Made by a program: the position numbers and the translations under genes. DNA of 64,000 bases from Lachnospiraceae bacterium (GTDB taxonomy: Bacteria; Bacillota; Clostridia; Lachnospirales; Lachnospiraceae): the NCBI GenBank assembly GCA_021201665.1, contig JAJQEO010000114.1, forward strand, positions 5,334-69,333. The letters are read 5' to 3'. The first letter of the stretch is position 1; each line of letters starts with the position of its first letter. This document shows positions 8,956-51,122 of the stretch, piece by piece. The notes below the pieces were generated by a model. That model was given only the letters and a program-made list of their open reading frames with translations, was not told the DNA's origin and did no database searches.

Positions 8956-10374
8956 ATGCTTGTAGAGACAAAAGCAAGAGTAGGCGTATTTTCAATTGCA
9001 CTGGGCGCGTATCTGCCGCAGTTCCCGCAGCTGGTGCCGGAGTTTGAGGCACAGTTCGAGGCATTCAAAAAGACTCTGCCGGATACGGTAGAGATCATCG
9101 ACGGAGGCATGGTGACCACCAAGGAGCAGTCCCAGGCGGCGGGAGAAAAGTTCCGCGCGGCAGATGTAGATCTGGTATTTCTGCAGCTGCTGACCTACGC
9201 GACCTCCTACAATATGCTCCCGGCAGTCCGCGATCTGGATGTGCCGGTCGTACTGGTAAATGTACAGAAGCTCAAAGCTCTGGATTATCAGCACACGGAC
9301 ATCGCTTCCTGGCTGGGCGAAGGCTATGCCTGCGGCGCGGTCGGTGAGATGGTGGCAGACCTGGAGCGCTTTGGCAAGAGACATGCGGTAATTACCGGTG
9401 TGGTAGAGGGCGGAGACGCTGGTGTGCAGGCGGAGATCGAAGACTGGTGCAAGGCAGCCCAGACCCGCCGCCGTTTCCGCGATACCAATATCGCGCAGAT
9501 CGGCAGACCGTATCCGGGCATGATGGATCTCTATATCGACGAGACCAACCTGTACAGAAGAATGAATCTGTATACCAAGCAGTTTGACTGGGAAAAAATG
9601 TGGATCATCGCGGACAATGTGACCGACGAGGACGCGATCCGCGCGAAGGCACAGGATATCCTGGATACCTTTGATATCGAAGGCGGCGGCACCATCGAGA
9701 AGGTATGGGATATGGCAAAATATGTCGTTGCGTTTGAGAAGTGGGTTGAGGATGAAAGGCTCGGCCTGATCGCTTCTCATTACGACGGACTGGCACAGGG
9801 AAAAGCAGGTGTCCTTGACAGTATGCTGATCCCGGCATTCTCCATGCTGATCAAGCAGGGCGTGGCCTGCGCGGTAGAAGGCGACATGAAGGTCGCGATG
9901 GCCATGAGCATCCTGAAGACCATCTCCGGTACCGGCCAGCTCGCTGAGATGTATTCCATCGACTTCAATGATGACATCGCGATCATCGGCCACAGCGGCT
10001 CCGGCGACGCGGACATCTCCGACAAGAAGCCGACCATGAAGATCGTAGAAGTCTTCCACGGCAAGACCGGCGGCGGCTACCTGACCCAGTTCTATCCGTA
10101 CTTAGGACCGGTGACCTACCTTGCGATCACGCAGGACGGCGATGGACATTTCAAATTCGTCGTGGCAGAGGGCGTAAACGAAGAGGGCGAGATCCTTTCC
10201 TTCGGCGACACCAATATGCGTACCCGCTTCACCTGCGGCGCGAGAGAGTTTGTCAACCGCTGGAGCGAGTGCGGCCCGACCCATCACTTCGCGGCAGCGA
10301 CCGGCAGACACATCGACACCATCCTCAAGGTTGCGAAGATCTTCAATGTGCCGGTGGATATAGTTACCAGATAA
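8956..10374 (+). CDS. L-arabinose/L-fucose isomerase-family sugar isomerase, probably acting on L-rhamnose
   Basis: Predicted metal-dependent aldose-ketose isomerase of 472 residues. The fold is the AraA/FucI family, not the TIM-barrel RhaA family. The recognisable AraA pattern is in the C-terminal half: AVEGDMKVAM (metal-ligand Glu region), IIGHSGSGD, FHGKTGGGY, and the terminal GPTHHFAAATG with metal-binding His, close to AraA's GGAHHT. It lies between rhaB and rhaD where rhaA is normally found, and no rhaA is seen in the window. It is therefore inferred to make L-rhamnulose. A role on L-fucose or L-arabinose is possible, but no araB/araD or fucK/fucA accompanies it. AAGGAGAGG precedes the start. 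Confidence 0.85.
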   Translation: MLVETKARVGVFSIALGAYLPQFPQLVPEFEAQFEAFKKTLPDTVEIIDGGMVTTKEQSQAAGEKFRAADVDLVFLQLLTYATSYNMLPAVRDLDVPVVLVNVQKLKALDYQHTDIASWLGEGYACGAVGEMVADLERFGKRHAVITGVVEGGDAGVQAEIEDWCKAAQTRRRFRDTNIAQIGRPYPGMMDLYIDETNLYRRMNLYTKQFDWEKMWIIADNVTDEDAIRAKAQDILDTFDIEGGGTIEKVWDMAKYVVAFEKWVEDERLGLIASHYDGLAQGKAGVLDSMLIPAFSMLIKQGVACAVEGDMKVAMAMSILKTISGTGQLAEMYSIDFNDDIAIIGHSGSGDADISDKKPTMKIVEVFHGKTGGGYLTQFYPYLGPVTYLAITQDGDGHFKFVVAEGVNEEGEILSFGDTNMRTRFTCGAREFVNRWSECGPTHHFAAATGRHIDTILKVAKIFNVPVDIVTR

Positions 10375-10456
10375 CGAATAGTACTGTATAAAACTGCGCT
10401 GTTTATGCGCCTGAAAGTTCATAATACTTTACGAAGTACGTTTTTTGCATCAATAT

Positions 10457-10494
10457 GGATAGGGGAACGAAGAGAATTCCCCTATCCGTTTTTT
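10457..10494 (+). terminator. Rho-independent terminator with GGATAGGGGAA stem
   Basis: A perfect 11-bp stem (10457-10467 with 10477-10487), a 9-nt loop and a run of six T (10489-10494). It ends the rhaB-isomerase transcript just before the convergent abi gene. The stem is the core of the dispersed palindrome family seen at 22615 and 59928. Confidence 0.88.
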
Positions 10495-11434
10495 AAGGAA
10501 TGCGATATCTGGTGATTTCTTTCCAGTTTGGTGGAAATCCCATCTGTTTTAATAAATCCGCTTCACTTATGTGTATGACGGATTTCGTTAAGCCCGTAAT
10601 TAATTTGTTCAGGCTTCGCTTAAAACGGCAAAAATCTTTCCCAGGGAGAAGATAGCGAAAAGCGATGACAGCGGCAAATAAATCTTTCTTCCCATAAATA
10701 TATTGTTCTGCGTCCATAGGAATGTGCATTTTTTGGTGTATAGGAAGATCGGCAATGGCATCTATCGTTTTATACGTAAATAACCTTTCACCATGCGCAC
10801 ATACATTCCTGAATTTCGTGAGACATGATAAAAACTGCCCCATCTGTTTTGGATTGACGGTTTTTACTGATTTACAGATTTTTGATTGCAAGGTCTGCGG
10901 GAATACCTGATACATTTTGGAAAGATTCCCAAAAGTAAGGACATTAACCAAAACCCAAAGCGGAATATTTCCATAGGTATCTCTGTAATGATTTATGTAT
11001 GCATAATCGGTCGTAGTCGTAGCACGCTGTAAGGTTGCTATCAGACGGATAATAGCCTTTCGGTTCTTTTTACAATAATTGAAATTGTTTACATCCAGAT
11101 AGGCTGTCTGCGATTCCCCGTATTTTTCAGAAAAATAATAGGACATTAGTGAACGCAGATGTCGTTCAATCTGAAGCAGATATTTAAAAAACAATTCTCT
11201 TAAATCTGCATCAAACTCATAAAGGGCAACGATTTCTTCAAAGGTTGTCCCTGATTTGTATGTTTTTGTAAAAGGAATACGAAACAAATGCTTATATCCA
11301 CCAATCAATGGGAAATAACCAATCCGCTCTAGAATGTCTTTCGCAAAATCCGTGTTCTGTATGATGATTTGCTTTTCTGATGTCAATATGTATAGTTGTT
11401 GTTCGTAATCCGAGAAGGTTTTTACTTTTGTCAT
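10493..11434 (-). CDS. Abi_2 family abortive-infection protein (AbiD/AbiF-like)
   Basis: Predicted phage-defence or toxin protein of 313 residues. The N-terminal Abi_2 core is visible (IGYFPLIGGYKHLFR, residues 38-52, and LRELFFKYLLQIERHLRS, 78-95). RNVCAH at 209-214 fits the HEPN ribonuclease motif R-x4-H. The ATG at 11434 is chosen because TCAGGAGAAC stands just upstream. A longer frame to 11500 would run through a terminator hairpin. The gene is inverted within the rhamnose operon and has its own strong promoter and a small structured RNA directly upstream. That arrangement matches AbiF loci in which an upstream RNA has been reported to act as antitoxin. RNA cleavage activity is inferred. 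Confidence 0.85.
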   Translation of the reverse strand: MTKVKTFSDYEQQLYILTSEKQIIIQNTDFAKDILERIGYFPLIGGYKHLFRIPFTKTYKSGTTFEEIVALYEFDADLRELFFKYLLQIERHLRSLMSYYFSEKYGESQTAYLDVNNFNYCKKNRKAIIRLIATLQRATTTTDYAYINHYRDTYGNIPLWVLVNVLTFGNLSKMYQVFPQTLQSKICKSVKTVNPKQMGQFLSCLTKFRNVCAHGERLFTYKTIDAIADLPIHQKMHIPMDAEQYIYGKKDLFAAVIAFRYLLPGKDFCRFKRSLNKLITGLTKSVIHISEADLLKQMGFPPNWKEITRYRIP

Positions 11435-11450
11435 TGTGTTCTCCTGATAT

Positions 11451-11520
11451 GAAAAAGAGGGAGAGACCCGAAGGCTCTCCCCCGGCCGCGGGCTTCGCAA
11501 GTTTCCGCAACACGATCACT
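11451..11520 (-). ncRNA. Candidate AbiF-associated small RNA with terminator
   Basis: Transcript predicted from a promoter at 11555-11527. Its first hairpin pairs GTTGCGG (11511-11505) with CCGCGGC (11491-11485), with two G-U pairs; the 13-nt loop holds a mini-stem CTT/AAG. The second hairpin is a terminator: GGGAGAGCC..., 11481-11459, UUCG-like loop, followed by TCTTTTT. The RNA would be about 70 nt and ends 17 nt before the abi start codon, so the toxin would be made by read-through. An RNA motif upstream of Abi_2 genes is known from comparative RNA surveys as I recall; identity with that motif was not tested. Confidence 0.65.
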
Positions 11521-11526
11521 GAACCT

Positions 11527-11555
11527 ACTATAGCAGACTATGAACGGCATGTCAA
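11527..11555 (-). promoter_or_regulatory. Consensus sigma-A promoter for the small RNA/abi unit
   Basis: TTGACA (11555-11550) and TATAGT (11532-11527) lie on the minus strand with exactly 17 bp between them. The predicted start near 11520 lies directly before the first hairpin of the small RNA. Confidence 0.8.
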
Positions 11556-11730
11556 CAGGATAGTTGAAATTATTACACCAGTGCTGTTGCTTAATTGCCG
11601 CTTTTGTCTACTACGCAGTTCATGGTTTAGTATATGCACGGAAAGATAAAAGATTCCGTTTTGTCATATCTGTATATTTTCTTAAGAAAGAACTCCTGAA
11701 AAACTGTTAAAAATAGAAAACAGAATTTTC

Positions 11731-11759
11731 TTTACAAACCACATAAAACAATATATAAT
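11731..11759 (+). promoter_or_regulatory. Promoter of rhaD
   Basis: TTTACA (11731-11736), 17-bp spacer, TATAAT (11754-11759). The start near 11766 would give a leader of about 250 nt made almost wholly of A and C. This shows that rhaD has its own promoter behind the inverted defence gene. Confidence 0.7.
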
Positions 11760-11767
11760 AAACACGC

Positions 11768-11960
11768 AAAACAACATAAAACAACATTAACAAGGAACAA
11801 AAACAACACAAAACAAAAATCAAAGGGATAAAAAGCAAGGAAAAAAACAAAAGCAAAGCAAGAAGGTAAAACAAAAAAGTAAAGCAACAAAGTAAAACAA
11901 AAAAGTAAAACAAAAAAGTAAAACAAAAAGGTAAAACAAAAAAGTAAAACAAAAAGGTAA
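11768..11960. repeat. A/C-rich rhaD leader with two kinds of direct repeats
   Basis: Right after the -10 box, ACAACATAAA/ACAACATTAA occurs twice in a 10-bp register (11771-11790). Further on, a 13-bp unit GTAAAACAAAAAA is repeated about seven times (starts 11866, 11879, 11892, 11905, 11918, 11931, 11944). AAAACAACATAAA recurs at 50095 before the microcompartment genes. The repeats could be operators or an unstructured leader. A short CGGCTCCG/CGGAGCCG hairpin (11968-11986) precedes the rhaD ribosome binding site. Confidence 0.75.
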
Positions 11961-12014
11961 AAAAAGTCGGCTCCGAACCGGAGCCGGGCCTAATCGGGAA
12001 AGAGAGGAAAAGAC

Positions 12015-12845
12015 ATGAAAATTTTGGAAACGAGATTTATGCAGGGCTTTATCAAGATGGCGGATGATGGATTTCATCAGGGCTGGCATGAGAGAAACGG
12101 CGGCAACCTTAGCTACCGCCTGAAGCCGGACGAGGTGGAGATGATCCGTCCGCGTCTGAACACACCGGGAGAGTGGGAGCCGATCGGCACGGAGGTGCCG
12201 GGACTGGCGGGTGAGTTTTTCCTGGTGACCGGCAGCGGCAAATATTTCCGTAACATTATCGTTGATCCGGAGGTCTGCCTGGCCATCATTGAGCTGGACG
12301 ACGCGGGCGTGAATTACCGCATCCGCTGGGGACTCGTAGAGGGCGGACGGCCGACGAGCGAGCTGCCGACCCACCTGATGAACCATGAGGTAAAGAAAAA
12401 GCTGACGAACGACAGGCATCGTGTGATTTACCATGCGCATACGACGAATATTATCGCACTGACCTTTGTGCTGCCGCTTTCGGACAAGGTCTTCACCAGA
12501 GAGCTTTGGGAGACTGCGACGGAATGTCCGGTGGTATTCCCGGACGGCGTCGGCGTGGTCGGCTGGATGGTGCCGGGCGGGCGCGAGATCGCGCTGAAGA
12601 CCGCAGAACTGATGGAAAAATATGACGTTGTGATCTGGGCGCACCATGGGATGTTCTGCTCCGGCGAGGATTTTGACCTGACCTTCGGGCTGCTGCATAC
12701 GGTTGAGAAGTCGGCGGAAATCCTGGTCAAGATCCTTTCCATGAATCCGCGGAAGCTGCAGACCATCACGCCGGATAATTTCCGGGATCTCGCGAAGGGC
12801 TTCAACGTCACGCTGCCGGAGGAATTCCTGTACGAGAAGCCTTGA
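12015..12845 (+). CDS. rhaD: L-rhamnulose-1-phosphate aldolase RhaD (class II aldolase)
   Basis: Cleaves L-rhamnulose 1-phosphate to dihydroxyacetone phosphate and L-lactaldehyde. The protein has 276 residues, normal for RhaD. The class II aldolase zinc histidines are in VIYHAHTTN (about residues 137-145) and VIWAHHGMF (about 210-218). The phosphate-binding segment is WHERNGGNLSYR near the N-terminus, with LVTGSGKYF following. GAGAGGAAAAG precedes the ATG. Lactaldehyde can be reduced to 1,2-propanediol, which links this gene to the microcompartment proteins at 50225-51664. Confidence 0.95.
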   Translation: MKILETRFMQGFIKMADDGFHQGWHERNGGNLSYRLKPDEVEMIRPRLNTPGEWEPIGTEVPGLAGEFFLVTGSGKYFRNIIVDPEVCLAIIELDDAGVNYRIRWGLVEGGRPTSELPTHLMNHEVKKKLTNDRHRVIYHAHTTNIIALTFVLPLSDKVFTRELWETATECPVVFPDGVGVVGWMVPGGREIALKTAELMEKYDVVIWAHHGMFCSGEDFDLTFGLLHTVEKSAEILVKILSMNPRKLQTITPDNFRDLAKGFNVTLPEEFLYEKP

Positions 12846-35206: not shown

Positions 35207-36643
35207 ATGATACAGGAGACAAATGAATTGATTCTGGGGATTGACCTGAACCCGGATTATACACAGGTGACATATTATCATCAGTCGGTCAGAGAGCCGA
35301 TGACTTTGGGCGGGGACGAACGCTCACAGCTGATGCCGGCCGGCATGCGCCAGGATGAGAATGGAATCTGGTCCCTTTGGGATGGTACCTCTGAGACGAT
35401 CGGTGATAGTGCCGGTCGGGACGCAAAGCAGATATTTGTCGGCGAGGCCGGAGCATCGGCTGATAAGACATGGATGAATGGCGGAGAAAAGCCATCTGTC
35501 GGTATGTCGCAGATGAATGGCGGGGGAAGGTCTTCTGCCGATACGTTGCAGCCGGATGGCGGGATGAACCCTGGCGGATATTCGGTCGCGCGTGTCTGGG
35601 AGAGTATTTTGCAGAGTGTATCCGGAGATAACGGGGAGGACGTAGAGCTCCCGATGGGCCGGGATGAGCTTCTCGCAGCTTACCTGAAGCTGTGTATCGC
35701 TGGTTTAAAGCTATTGACATCTGACACGACACTCTCTGTGATGGTGACTGTGAAAAATCTTACGGAGACGCAGAACCAGGTAATCGTAGATGCACTGATG
35801 CGTTTTGGAGTCGATCGAAAAAAAATCTATGTGCAGGATTATCTGTCTTCCTTCTTTTATTACGTAATCAACCAGAAAAAGGAGCTCTGGCTGCAGGATG
35901 TTGCTCTGCTCACTTATGAGGAAGAGAGCATGGTCGGCTATGTGCTTCATATTGACCGCTCAACCAGACCGGCGATCGCCCGCGTTACGGAGGCTGCCCG
36001 GCAGCCGGTGACAGAGGAAGTACGCGCAAATCGCTCCGATGAGGACTGGAGAAGGGAAAAAGACCGTCTTTTCTTTGAACTGCTGAAAAAAGTATTTGAG
36101 CGGAGGACGATCGCTGTCAGTTATCTTTTTGGAGATTATTTTGACCAAAGCTGGACAAAACGCTCCATCCAGTTTCTGTGTTCAGGGCGGCGTGCCTATC
36201 AGGGCATGAATCTTTACTCCAGGGGCGCCTGCTATGCGGCGATGGAGCGGACCGGTATCCTGGGCGGCGGCGAGATCCTTTTTGGCGGCGGCGACATGCT
36301 GCAACGAAATCTGGGCATGGAAATGAGCATCCGCGGAAAGGAAAGCTATTATCCGCTAGTGAATGCGGGAGTCAACTGGTACGAAGCGCACCATTCCTGT
36401 GAATTTATCCTGCACGGGGAACGGGAGATTCGTCTCGTTTCACAGCCTATGACGCCCGGTGCGCCTGTCATCCACTCCATGCGCCTTCCCGGACTTCCCA
36501 AAAGGCCGGACCGCGCGACCAGGCTGCGCATGACCATCTACTATACATCTGCCGCCTGCTGCCATGTCGAGGTCGAAGACCTGGGCTTCGGAGGACTTTA
36601 TAAATCCTCTCAGCTGACCTGGTCCCGCGACATCCGATTTTGA
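35207..36643 (+). CDS. DUF5716-type protein with actin/Hsp70-like N-terminus
   Basis: 478 residues. It opens with ELILGIDLNPDYTQVTYY, which has the shape of the first phosphate loop of ASKHA-fold ATPases. Around residues 165-225 it has the pattern LTETQNQVIVDALMRFGVD ... QDYLSSFFYYV, like the second subdomain of Hsp70/FtsA. The C-terminal part (about 320-478) is the DUF5716_C-like region, with GAVNW/GGGDMLQRNLG segments. No canonical catalytic set is clear, so it may be a pseudo-ATPase. A three-fold 13-residue repeat (83-121) interrupts it. It is encoded between the DUF5717 scaffold and a helical-repeat protein, suggesting one complex. Confidence 0.65.
   Translation: MIQETNELILGIDLNPDYTQVTYYHQSVREPMTLGGDERSQLMPAGMRQDENGIWSLWDGTSETIGDSAGRDAKQIFVGEAGASADKTWMNGGEKPSVGMSQMNGGGRSSADTLQPDGGMNPGGYSVARVWESILQSVSGDNGEDVELPMGRDELLAAYLKLCIAGLKLLTSDTTLSVMVTVKNLTETQNQVIVDALMRFGVDRKKIYVQDYLSSFFYYVINQKKELWLQDVALLTYEEESMVGYVLHIDRSTRPAIARVTEAARQPVTEEVRANRSDEDWRREKDRLFFELLKKVFERRTIAVSYLFGDYFDQSWTKRSIQFLCSGRRAYQGMNLYSRGACYAAMERTGILGGGEILFGGGDMLQRNLGMEMSIRGKESYYPLVNAGVNWYEAHHSCEFILHGEREIRLVSQPMTPGAPVIHSMRLPGLPKRPDRATRLRMTIYYTSAACCHVEVEDLGFGGLYKSSQLTWSRDIRF
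35453..35569 (+). repeat. Three-fold 39-bp in-frame repeat inside the DUF5716-type gene
   Basis: Encodes 13-residue units with cores MNGGEK, MNGGGR and PDGGMN. The period is a multiple of three, so the frame is kept. It probably forms a flexible loop. Confidence 0.7.
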
Positions 36644-36645
36644 GA

Positions 36646-36834
36646 GCATTTGCCAACGCGAAGCGTTTTGGAATGGCAAATGCGACCTGCCGCCGAACGG
36701 AGTGAGGGGGCGTTTCCTTGCATTTGCCAACGCGAAGCGCTCTCGGAATGGCAAATGCGACCTGCCCTCGAACGAAGTGAGGGGGCGTTTCCCTGCATTT
36801 GCCAACGCGAAGCGTTCTCGGAATGGCAAATGCG
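36646..36834. repeat. Tandem REP-like palindromes, 74-75-bp unit, 2.5 copies
   Basis: Units start at 36646, 36720 and 36795. Each begins with a hairpin GCATTTGCCA ... TGGCAAATGC around ACGCGAAGCGTT, followed by a spacer that ends GAGGGGGCGTTTCC. The third copy has only the hairpin. A related element in reverse orientation lies inside the PduU-like gene at 50636. Located between the DUF5716 and helical-repeat genes of one operon. Confidence 0.9.
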
Positions 36835-50612: not shown

Positions 50613-51122
50613 ATGAATCAGAGACTTACCAGAGTGGAAACGCCCCCTCGCAGGGGCTCGGCGGCAAGTCGCGCCGCCAATGAAAAAAACGCTTCGCGTT
50701 TGGGCGGCGCTGAAGAATTTCTCCGTAAAATCTTTCATGACTATGACAACAGAAAGCCCGGGGAGCCGCTGCGGCTTGTGCGGGTGCGTGTCCCGAGCAC
50801 TGAGGTGAGCCTGGCGCATCTGATCGGGACCTCCGAAAGGGAGGTTTATCAGACCCTTGGACTGCATATCGGGGTACACGAGGGGGAGGACCATACCGGA
50901 GAAACCCTTGGATTTATGAATTTTACGCCCTGGGAGGCGGTTGTTGTCGCGGCGGATATTGCGATCAAGAACGGTGGCGTGGAGATCGGCTTTCTGGACC
51001 GTTTTAACGGAGCACTGATCCTGACCGGGCGGCACGACGAGGTGCGCGCCTCCATTGAGGCGGTGATCACCTTTTTCCGGGATGAGCTGCATTTTCCTGT
51101 CTGCGATATCACGGAAAGCTGA
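50613..51122 (+). CDS. PduU/EutS-like microcompartment protein with an inserted repeat near its N-terminus
   Basis: 169 residues, about 50 longer than typical PduU. The C-terminal 110 fit PduU: VRVPSTEVSLAHLIGTSE, LGFMNFTPWEAVVVAAD, VEIGFLDRFNGALILTGR. Residues about 8-33 are encoded by a REP-like element (50636-50708), giving an Arg/Ala/Ser/Gly-rich tract (PPRRGSAASRAANEKN), so this part is not ancestral. ATG 50613 follows GGAG; an overlapping TTG is ignored. It probably makes a shell face protein with an exposed extra tail. EutP-like gene follows by 41 bp. Confidence 0.82.
   Translation: MNQRLTRVETPPRRGSAASRAANEKNASRLGGAEEFLRKIFHDYDNRKPGEPLRLVRVRVPSTEVSLAHLIGTSEREVYQTLGLHIGVHEGEDHTGETLGFMNFTPWEAVVVAADIAIKNGGVEIGFLDRFNGALILTGRHDEVRASIEAVITFFRDELHFPVCDITES
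50636..50708. repeat. REP-like element inside the PduU-like gene
   Basis: Reads GGAAACGCCCCCTC, AAGTCGC, paired arms GCGCCGCC/GGGCGGCGC and central AACGCTTCGCGTT. The order and sequence match the reverse complement of the 74-bp units at 36646-36834. The insert keeps the reading frame. Confidence 0.78.

Follow-up and report, generated by a model that had tools for sequence, protein, structure and literature searches.

Does the short RNA encoded ahead of an abiF gene in a Lachnospiraceae sugar operon keep the AbiF protein silent, and is it an RNA of a known kind? We addressed this question in the window, i.e. the whole stretch of 64,000 nucleotides analysed here, in which a sequence-only reading had pointed out a promoter, two hairpins and a gene for an Abi_2/HEPN protein. 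The core elements of the unit are the following:

10493..11434, minus strand: abiF/abi_2 coding sequence of 313 aa, ATG at 11434, stop codon at 10493-10495
10793..10810, minus strand: HEPN RNase motif R209-N-V-C-A-H214, placed by an alignment of 34 homologs
11441..11445, minus strand: ribosome binding site AGGAG, from the sequence
11550..11555, minus strand: -35 element TTGACA, from the sequence and the family-wide promoter position
11527..11532, minus strand: -10 element TATAGT, from the sequence and the family-wide promoter position
11452..11520, minus strand: predicted 69-nt structured RNA with two hairpins, ending in a U-run at 11456-11452
11485..11511, minus strand: hairpin 1, core of covariance model R1, helix of 11511-11505 with 11491-11485
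11459..11481, minus strand: hairpin 2, UUCG-looped and terminator-like, from covariation and a T-rich tail

Judged by its sequence and its predicted structure, the gene product is an Abi_2/AbiF HEPN protein with the AbiF fold. It matches Pfam Abi_2 (PF07751) with 176.3 bits against a cut-off of 25.6 (E 1e-51), PADLOC AbiD (4.4e-70) and the PHROG family phrog_2158, an abortive infection protein; NCBIfam returned no match for it. The residues R, N, C, A and H of RNxCAH are invariant across 34 aligned AbiF homologs, and the window ORF is full length with every conserved residue present (protein alignment A3 was made without L015, which has an internal stop, L019, L053 and L056). The AlphaFold2 model (pLDDT 90.6, pTM 0.87) had a sole Foldseek match in the PDB at E<=0.001, namely 8vz6, the PbAbiF dimer with its ncRNA (E 1.5e-10, TM 0.73/0.77), which the window protein also matches by sequence (3.9e-16). 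Abi2, AbiF and AbiD have been placed in HEPN (PMC3710099). The Abi_2/HEPN protein with a ribosome binding site that had been read from the letters is thus confirmed by PF07751 (176 bits), PADLOC AbiD, RNVCAH, the 8vz6 fold match and AGGAG, and AbiF is likely an RNA-cutting self-toxin of a gut bacterium. Serine/threonine kinases, which appeared in the PDB profile search at E 0.006-0.1, were dismissed as chance matches.

The promoter of the window, TTGACA-17-TATAGT, agrees with the consensus at 11 of 12 positions. The chance test of a promoter scan was unfavourable, with 2 promoter-like sites found and 5.3 expected in shuffles. Across the family, a promoter of at least 9/12 is present in 39 of 41 loci, all 39 having a 17-nt spacer and 6-7 nt up to the first A (AGUGA) of the RNA; near-duplicates (L001, L012, L024, L025) as well as L018, L019 and L043 are outside this count, and in the control for the promoter score, 18 out of 2000 randomly drawn 42-nt stretches of window sequence reached this level. 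The proposed promoter is therefore not only present but stands at a fixed place family-wide, and from its constant distance to AGUGA we infer that transcription starts at the A of this motif, position 11520.

Both hairpins fall within the first 62 nt of the predicted RNA. The 7-bp helix of hairpin 1 is paired in 30 of 30 distinct homologous sequences with both-side changes at 5 of its 7 pairs, and 97.8% of the cells are paired, a share that falls to 82.9% upon shuffling and to 23-46% when the register is slid; together with the 5' tail, this hairpin contains eight invariant and seven nearly invariant columns. For hairpin 2, 86-94% of the cells in 35 sequences are paired and both-side changes occur at 7/9 or 6/8 pairs, both figures depending on the register. 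All 37 distinct loci, in a count made without a control, have a T-rich stretch (at least 4 T per 6 nt) at the 3' arm of hairpin 2 or behind it. The underlying alignments, A1 and A2, were made without L018 and L019 (RNA absent or divergent), L028 (tandem copies), L043 (RNA downstream) and sequences identical over the aligned stretch. Covariation in homologous loci, the check that had been proposed for the hairpins, is hence strong for both of them, and it backs, along with the T-rich tail in 37/37 loci, the earlier description of two hairpins in about 70 nt of which the second is UUCG-looped and terminator-like. Single-sequence methods contributed little: the folding energy of the window RNA compared to shuffles is uninformative (z -0.46), its minimum-energy fold differs from the comparative fold, and a simple terminator scan did not flag hairpin 2. 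Furthermore, the window and L002 do not differ in the first 62 nt (62/62), though their genes are 86% identical; over the comparisons of L003 and L002 with the window, 61-62 of 62 nt are kept in the RNA at a gene identity of 75-86%. Altogether, a conserved gene for a predicted structured RNA is located directly upstream of abiF.

The scan with Rfam covariance models that the sequence-only reading had suggested went against the catalogued abiF RNA, RF03085. Within 11400-11620 of the window nothing scored above chance (no RF03085 at E<=10), and the bacterium's own genome gave no RF03085 match at E<=10 among the 150 of 1626 candidates scored. The model recovered the C. difficile phage phiC2 as a positive control (37.6 bits, gathering 37 bits) and, below the cut-off, an Alicyclobacillus plasmid (35.2 bits) and one viral locus (29.2 bits); it is absent from 14 related loci and from 16 loci (L150-L165) with distant same-family Abi_2 genes, where Rfam as a whole yielded one sub-threshold match only, to an unrelated leader. 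Like the window RNA, RF03085 is a short asymmetric hairpin upstream of abi_2 genes, yet the layouts differ: a 6-bp stem, internal loop sides of 1 nt and 6 nt, a 3-bp inner stem and an 11-nt loop in RF03085, versus a 7-bp stem, sides of 3 nt and 1 nt, a 2-bp inner pairing, a 5-nt YGNGA loop and a 5' AGUGA in the family of the window RNA. A literature search for AbiF and RNA, judged by titles and the openings of abstracts, turned up no paper on an RNA of the window type, and one for AbiF, ncRNA and Lachnospiraceae found nothing. The predicted RNA thus forms a covarying class of its own that is missing from Rfam, some copies of which are orphans or carried by phages. Since this Lachnospiraceae clade has an RNA outside Rfam and none was recognised in the 16 distant Abi_2 loci, comparison of the loci suggests a greater diversity of AbiF RNAs than the single family in the catalogue covers. 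By eye, several of L150-L165 show other arrangements of promoter, hairpin and T-run upstream of the Abi_2 gene.

How the RNA is distributed was examined with covariance model R1, built from 30 sequences, in 299 genomes of the family, requiring the RNA within 400 nt upstream of abiF homologs matched over at least 250 residues. The RNA precedes 22 of 22 homologs with at least 45% identity (one of which has an internal stop) and 10 of 13 with 35-44%, two classes that do not form an independent test because R1 sequences came from many of the very loci counted; at less than 35% identity it precedes 0 of 23, contig ends being disregarded in this class. The upstream regions of loci in which the abiF match misses the N-terminus (L014, L016, L020, L023) were left out. 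In IMG/VR, where a query with the single protein found no relative and an alignment query found AbiF relatives, 37 loci outside the R1 model gave the RNA upstream in 7/7 cases at 44% identity or more (three of the seven, L168-L170, have an RNA of equal score at the same position and may belong to a single lineage), in 2/6 at 35-41%, with a third match at 14.3 bits, and in 0/24 below 35%, a class in which L180, L193 and L196 have less than 100 bp upstream. The predicted RNA and the AbiF protein clade therefore go together. Across the phylum the predicted RNA is rare: at E<=0.1 it was found in 10 of 398 genomes, three of them in the family, one other with 39.7 bits and six with 21-25 bits. These counts are lower bounds because Infernal was run with stricter filters and 22 (family) or 16 (phylum) candidates were scored per genome. 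Among the 35-44% homologs without an upstream RNA, L043 carries the RNA downstream of abiF (2100-2210, 28.3 bits), with its own promoter-like sequence and a terminator-like hairpin. In L028 (G084:C44), two tandem R1 matches at 248-353 precede one abiF, recalling the two motifs of RCd22.

The surroundings of the unit bear on how it may have come to its present place. Three further features are needed here:

10493..11645, minus strand: transferable cassette of upstream element, promoter, RNA, terminator and gene, from homology to L002/G699
11628..11637, minus strand: GCATATACTA, a conserved element upstream of the promoter and close to the 5' edge of the cassette, from a motif count
10375..12014, no strand: insert between the isomerase-like and aldolase genes, from comparison with four congeners

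Homology of the window to L002 in the congener G699, whose cassette occupies a different place in the genome, is limited to roughly 10493..11645. Cassette copies with 84-92% DNA identity in unrelated surroundings (the window or L001 versus L002, and L006, L008, L009 and L011 among themselves) share ~1.15 kb, beginning ~186-236 nt ahead of the ATG and ending no more than ~13 bp from the stop codon; in a stricter first run, two of the pairs ended earlier, at -126 and -137. Two other pairs differ in extent: the likeness of L010/L013 (92%) starts at -155 and runs 53-54 bp beyond the stop, that of L034/L036 (89%) starts at -317 and runs 32-33 bp beyond it. The element GCATATACTA occurs with up to 2 mismatches in 33 of 44 loci, compared to ~4.3 expected from mononucleotide shuffles, though the motif had been picked from the same loci. 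One ORF fills the cassette, leaving no room for a transposase gene, and no consistent pair of inverted repeats or target-site duplications was found at cassette ends. Direct repeats were seen, without a control, at the cassette ends of L004 and its duplicate L024 (16 bp) and of L052, which has a partial abiF match (14 bp); in L004 and L052 they stand ~230 nt ahead of the ATG and 40 nt behind the stop, and several further loci have uncounted 9-10-bp matches at the ends.

In the window, the isomerase-like and aldolase genes are 1640 bp apart, and the cassette stands antisense in this interval. Four congeners that carry the two genes on a single contig show ~16, 112, 126 and 360 bp at this site and no cassette, L001 and L012 carry the same insertion as the window, and in G699 the site is empty while the cassette is elsewhere. 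The best reading of these comparisons is that the unit moves as a ~1.15-kb cassette, here inserted in a sugar operon. The earlier placement of the unit, inverted inside a rhamnose operon, holds for the antisense insertion in a sugar operon, whereas rhamnose is likely rather than proven, because the Pfam matches of the isomerase-like gene are all below cut-offs. Three further observations concern the insert. Between the cassette and the aldolase gene, positions 11837-11962 are taken up by 9.6 copies of a 13-bp AT-rich tandem repeat, AAGTAAAACAAAA. On the plus strand, TTTACA-17-TATAAT (11731-11759) could serve the aldolase gene, now separated, as a new promoter. A plus-strand GC hairpin with a T-run (10457-10494, by eye) directly follows the isomerase gene and overlaps the abiF stop codon; it would end sugar-operon transcription ahead of the cassette.

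By its sequence, the unit consists of a conserved promoter, a short two-hairpin RNA with a terminator-like end and a HEPN protein with the AbiF fold. From this order, the structural model and analogy, we consider it likely that the unit is a type III-like toxin-antitoxin/abortive-infection cassette, i.e. an RNA-neutralised HEPN RNase like AbiF-RCd22 of C. difficile. Most transcripts would end at the terminator and release the ~69-nt RNA, and some would read through, giving toxin mRNA. The AbiF dimer, an RNase, would bind hairpin 1 and be kept inactive, the bound part being the 7-bp stem with its A-rich/CUYGNGA loop and the conserved 5' AGUGA tail. Once the RNA supply drops, as it might in a host whose RNA a phage shuts down or degrades, AbiF would be freed and would cut RNA, and growth would stop. 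Because this scheme contains both a terminator step and the holding of AbiF by the RNA, the RNA would act in cis (attenuation) as well as in trans (antitoxin). The short RNA thus probably keeps AbiF silent. As the RNA of L043 lies downstream of abiF and the RNA often occurs without an intact toxin, read-through alone is probably not the whole control and action in trans is likely. For the window unit, the toxicity of AbiF, its binding of the RNA, the read-through and a role in defence are all inferred.

As a kind, the unit is ordinary, an AbiF-RNA toxin-antitoxin/abortive-infection cassette; what sets it apart is its predicted RNA class. The kinship with AbiF-RNA toxin-antitoxin pairs and the Cas13 ancestry, both named in the sequence-only reading, are indeed published (PMC12373285, PMC12737573). 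For C. difficile AbiF-RCd22, toxicity, neutralisation in cis and trans and RNA-protein binding are reported, as are the loss of toxicity upon mutation of R202/H207, read-through mapped by RACE and repression in cis at the level of transcription, phage defence being described as still to be demonstrated (PMC12373285). That unit, found in phi027 and phiC2, has likewise a SigA-type promoter, an ncRNA with a Rho-independent terminator, a ribosome binding site and abiF; phiC2 AbiF and the window protein are 28.7% identical (tblastn), both being Abi_2/HEPN proteins with RNxCAH. RCd22, however, has ~98-132 nt with two RF03085 motifs, whereas the window RNA has ~69 nt and one motif with another consensus and loop layout, so that the stoichiometry may differ; moreover, RCd22 sits in a prophage lysis module, the window unit in a chromosomal sugar operon. 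The PbAbiF-AbiFr complex is described as a HEPN dimer with an RNA antitoxin (PMC12737573). Although this complex is the only significant structural match of the window AbiF model, PbAbiF is 23% identical to window AbiF in the structural alignment. ToxIN resembles the unit as proposed here in that an RNase toxin is held by an RNA encoded upstream of its gene with a terminator in between, but we take its toxin fold to be unrelated to that of window AbiF. ToxI is reported to be a repeated pseudoknot RNA, unlike the window RNA (PMC5772629, PMC8860590). As to what might set off such units, one possible trigger is provided by AbiD1 of L. lactis, whose translation is reported to be switched on by a phage protein (PMC2661086).

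Would the same locus be explained if the RNA were a cis-acting leader only, attenuator- or riboswitch-like, which sets toxin expression and is not a protein-binding antitoxin? The near-constant position of the RNA between promoter and gene, the terminator-like hairpin before the ribosome binding site and the C. difficile repression in cis (PMC12373285) would fit, yet we hold this to be unlikely, given the downstream position of the L043 RNA, the helix and often also the promoter (20/33 at 9/12 or more) kept in orphan and remnant loci, and eight invariant plus seven nearly invariant columns in hairpin 1 and its 5' tail, which should exceed the needs of a terminator. It is very unlikely that the unit is a decayed or silent remnant which ceased to function in the sugar operon: while the gene behind the RNA is a fragment, a remnant or broken by a stop in 16 of the 65 strong matches, and the abiF match of L012, which shares the locus, ends at residue 228, the window ORF is complete and lacks none of the conserved residues, its promoter is intact and the RNA is unchanged with respect to L002.

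Extremely unlikely, despite the published kinship of AbiF and Cas13 (PMC12737573, PMC12373285), is an RNA-guided RNase, a Cas13-like forerunner choosing its targets by the RNA, for the first 62 nt are near-invariant (61-62/62) in the closest homologs L001, L002, L003 and L012 and the wider alignment has no variable, spacer-like stretch. Cas13 (type VI) has two HEPN domains in one protein and the window protein has one RNxCAH motif in 313 aa; regarding a CRISPR array, a look for tandem repeats at 10300-12100, the region covered, gave AT-rich arrays of 10-16 bp.

The RNA also occurs in copies without the toxin. We kept as the strong class matches of at least 39 bits, 65 of 81, leaving out 16. 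Of these 65, an intact-looking AbiF follows 31, a fragment or interrupted gene follows 10, and the protein search found no AbiF after the other 24. Closer inspection of the 24 revealed remnants in six (four by local profile, two by eye, one of the latter close to the end of its contig); a further match lies at a contig end, another is an additional copy behind an intact gene, and 16 have no detectable AbiF within 1.5 kb, some orphan loci being judged by inspection alone. Hence the RNA lies ahead of remnants or interrupted genes in 16/65 cases and has no detectable AbiF in another 16/65, i.e. it occurs without an intact toxin in 32/65. In 33 orphan or remnant loci, three weak ones included, a promoter of at least 9/12 is present in 20, and all 7 helix pairs are kept in 32, a figure biased upwards because the loci were found by a model that rewards pairing. 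Nor does the asymmetry of losses by itself prove addiction, since a 940-bp gene is a bigger target than a 69-nt RNA. The bacterium's own genome has four RNA copies: besides that of the window, one accompanies a 51% paralog, one accompanies a fragment, and the fourth is an orphan.

L208 and L209 (IMG/VR) and L081 (a family genome), which count as one case because they are close relatives, have in common an orphan RNA that carries a promoter-like sequence and a U-run. By tblastn no AbiF was found in the 3.5 and 6.9 kb of the L208 and L209 viral contigs, nor was any found in L081 or its genome. The RNA and a Phd-like/RelE-like pair stand among phage tail genes; the Phd-like antitoxin of L081 and L208 is phrog_2268, its RelE-like partner was named by eye, and the tail-gene calls, which cover L081 and L209, are phrog_88 major tail protein in L081, a tape measure in L209 and phrog_709 (unknown function) in both. 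A fixed partner gene behind orphan RNAs was considered and rejected, as the scanned downstream genes differ: an NTP transferase in L065, HTH and M78 peptidase genes in L099, and a sub-cut-off Phd-like ORF in L081, which is common to L081, L208 and L209 and was not read as a partner. L091 and L115 have, by eye, alike flanks and a small next ORF, likewise not read as a partner; in L091 a zeta-toxin-like ATPase gene (26.5 bits versus 22.3) comes next.

The orphan RNAs, including those of L081, L208 and L209, might be phage- or host-borne mimics that disarm the AbiF of the cell they have entered, an idea we find doubtful. Phage PhiTE is reported to escape ToxIN by an RNA mimic of the antitoxin, pseudo-ToxI (PMC3475682), a precedent which makes a counter-defence reading reasonable, if unproven. 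By this analogy, and just as tentatively, the RNA might be a free-standing antitoxin currency, its counter-defence aimed at the family ancestral to Cas13. In any case, the orphan copies pose the question whether a phage-borne RNA alone disarms AbiF.

Cas13 is reported to have arisen from the AbiF family (PMC12737573, PMC12373285), so that the forms taken by AbiF RNAs bear on the origins of guide RNAs, and covariance model R1 provides a handle for finding this RNA in transcriptomes. Elsewhere in the window, Rfam GA-cis (RF02987) has three matches above gathering, at 36642-36721 (plus strand), 36723-36792 (plus strand) and 50632-50715 (minus strand), the first two of which lie head to tail as a tandem array between genes.
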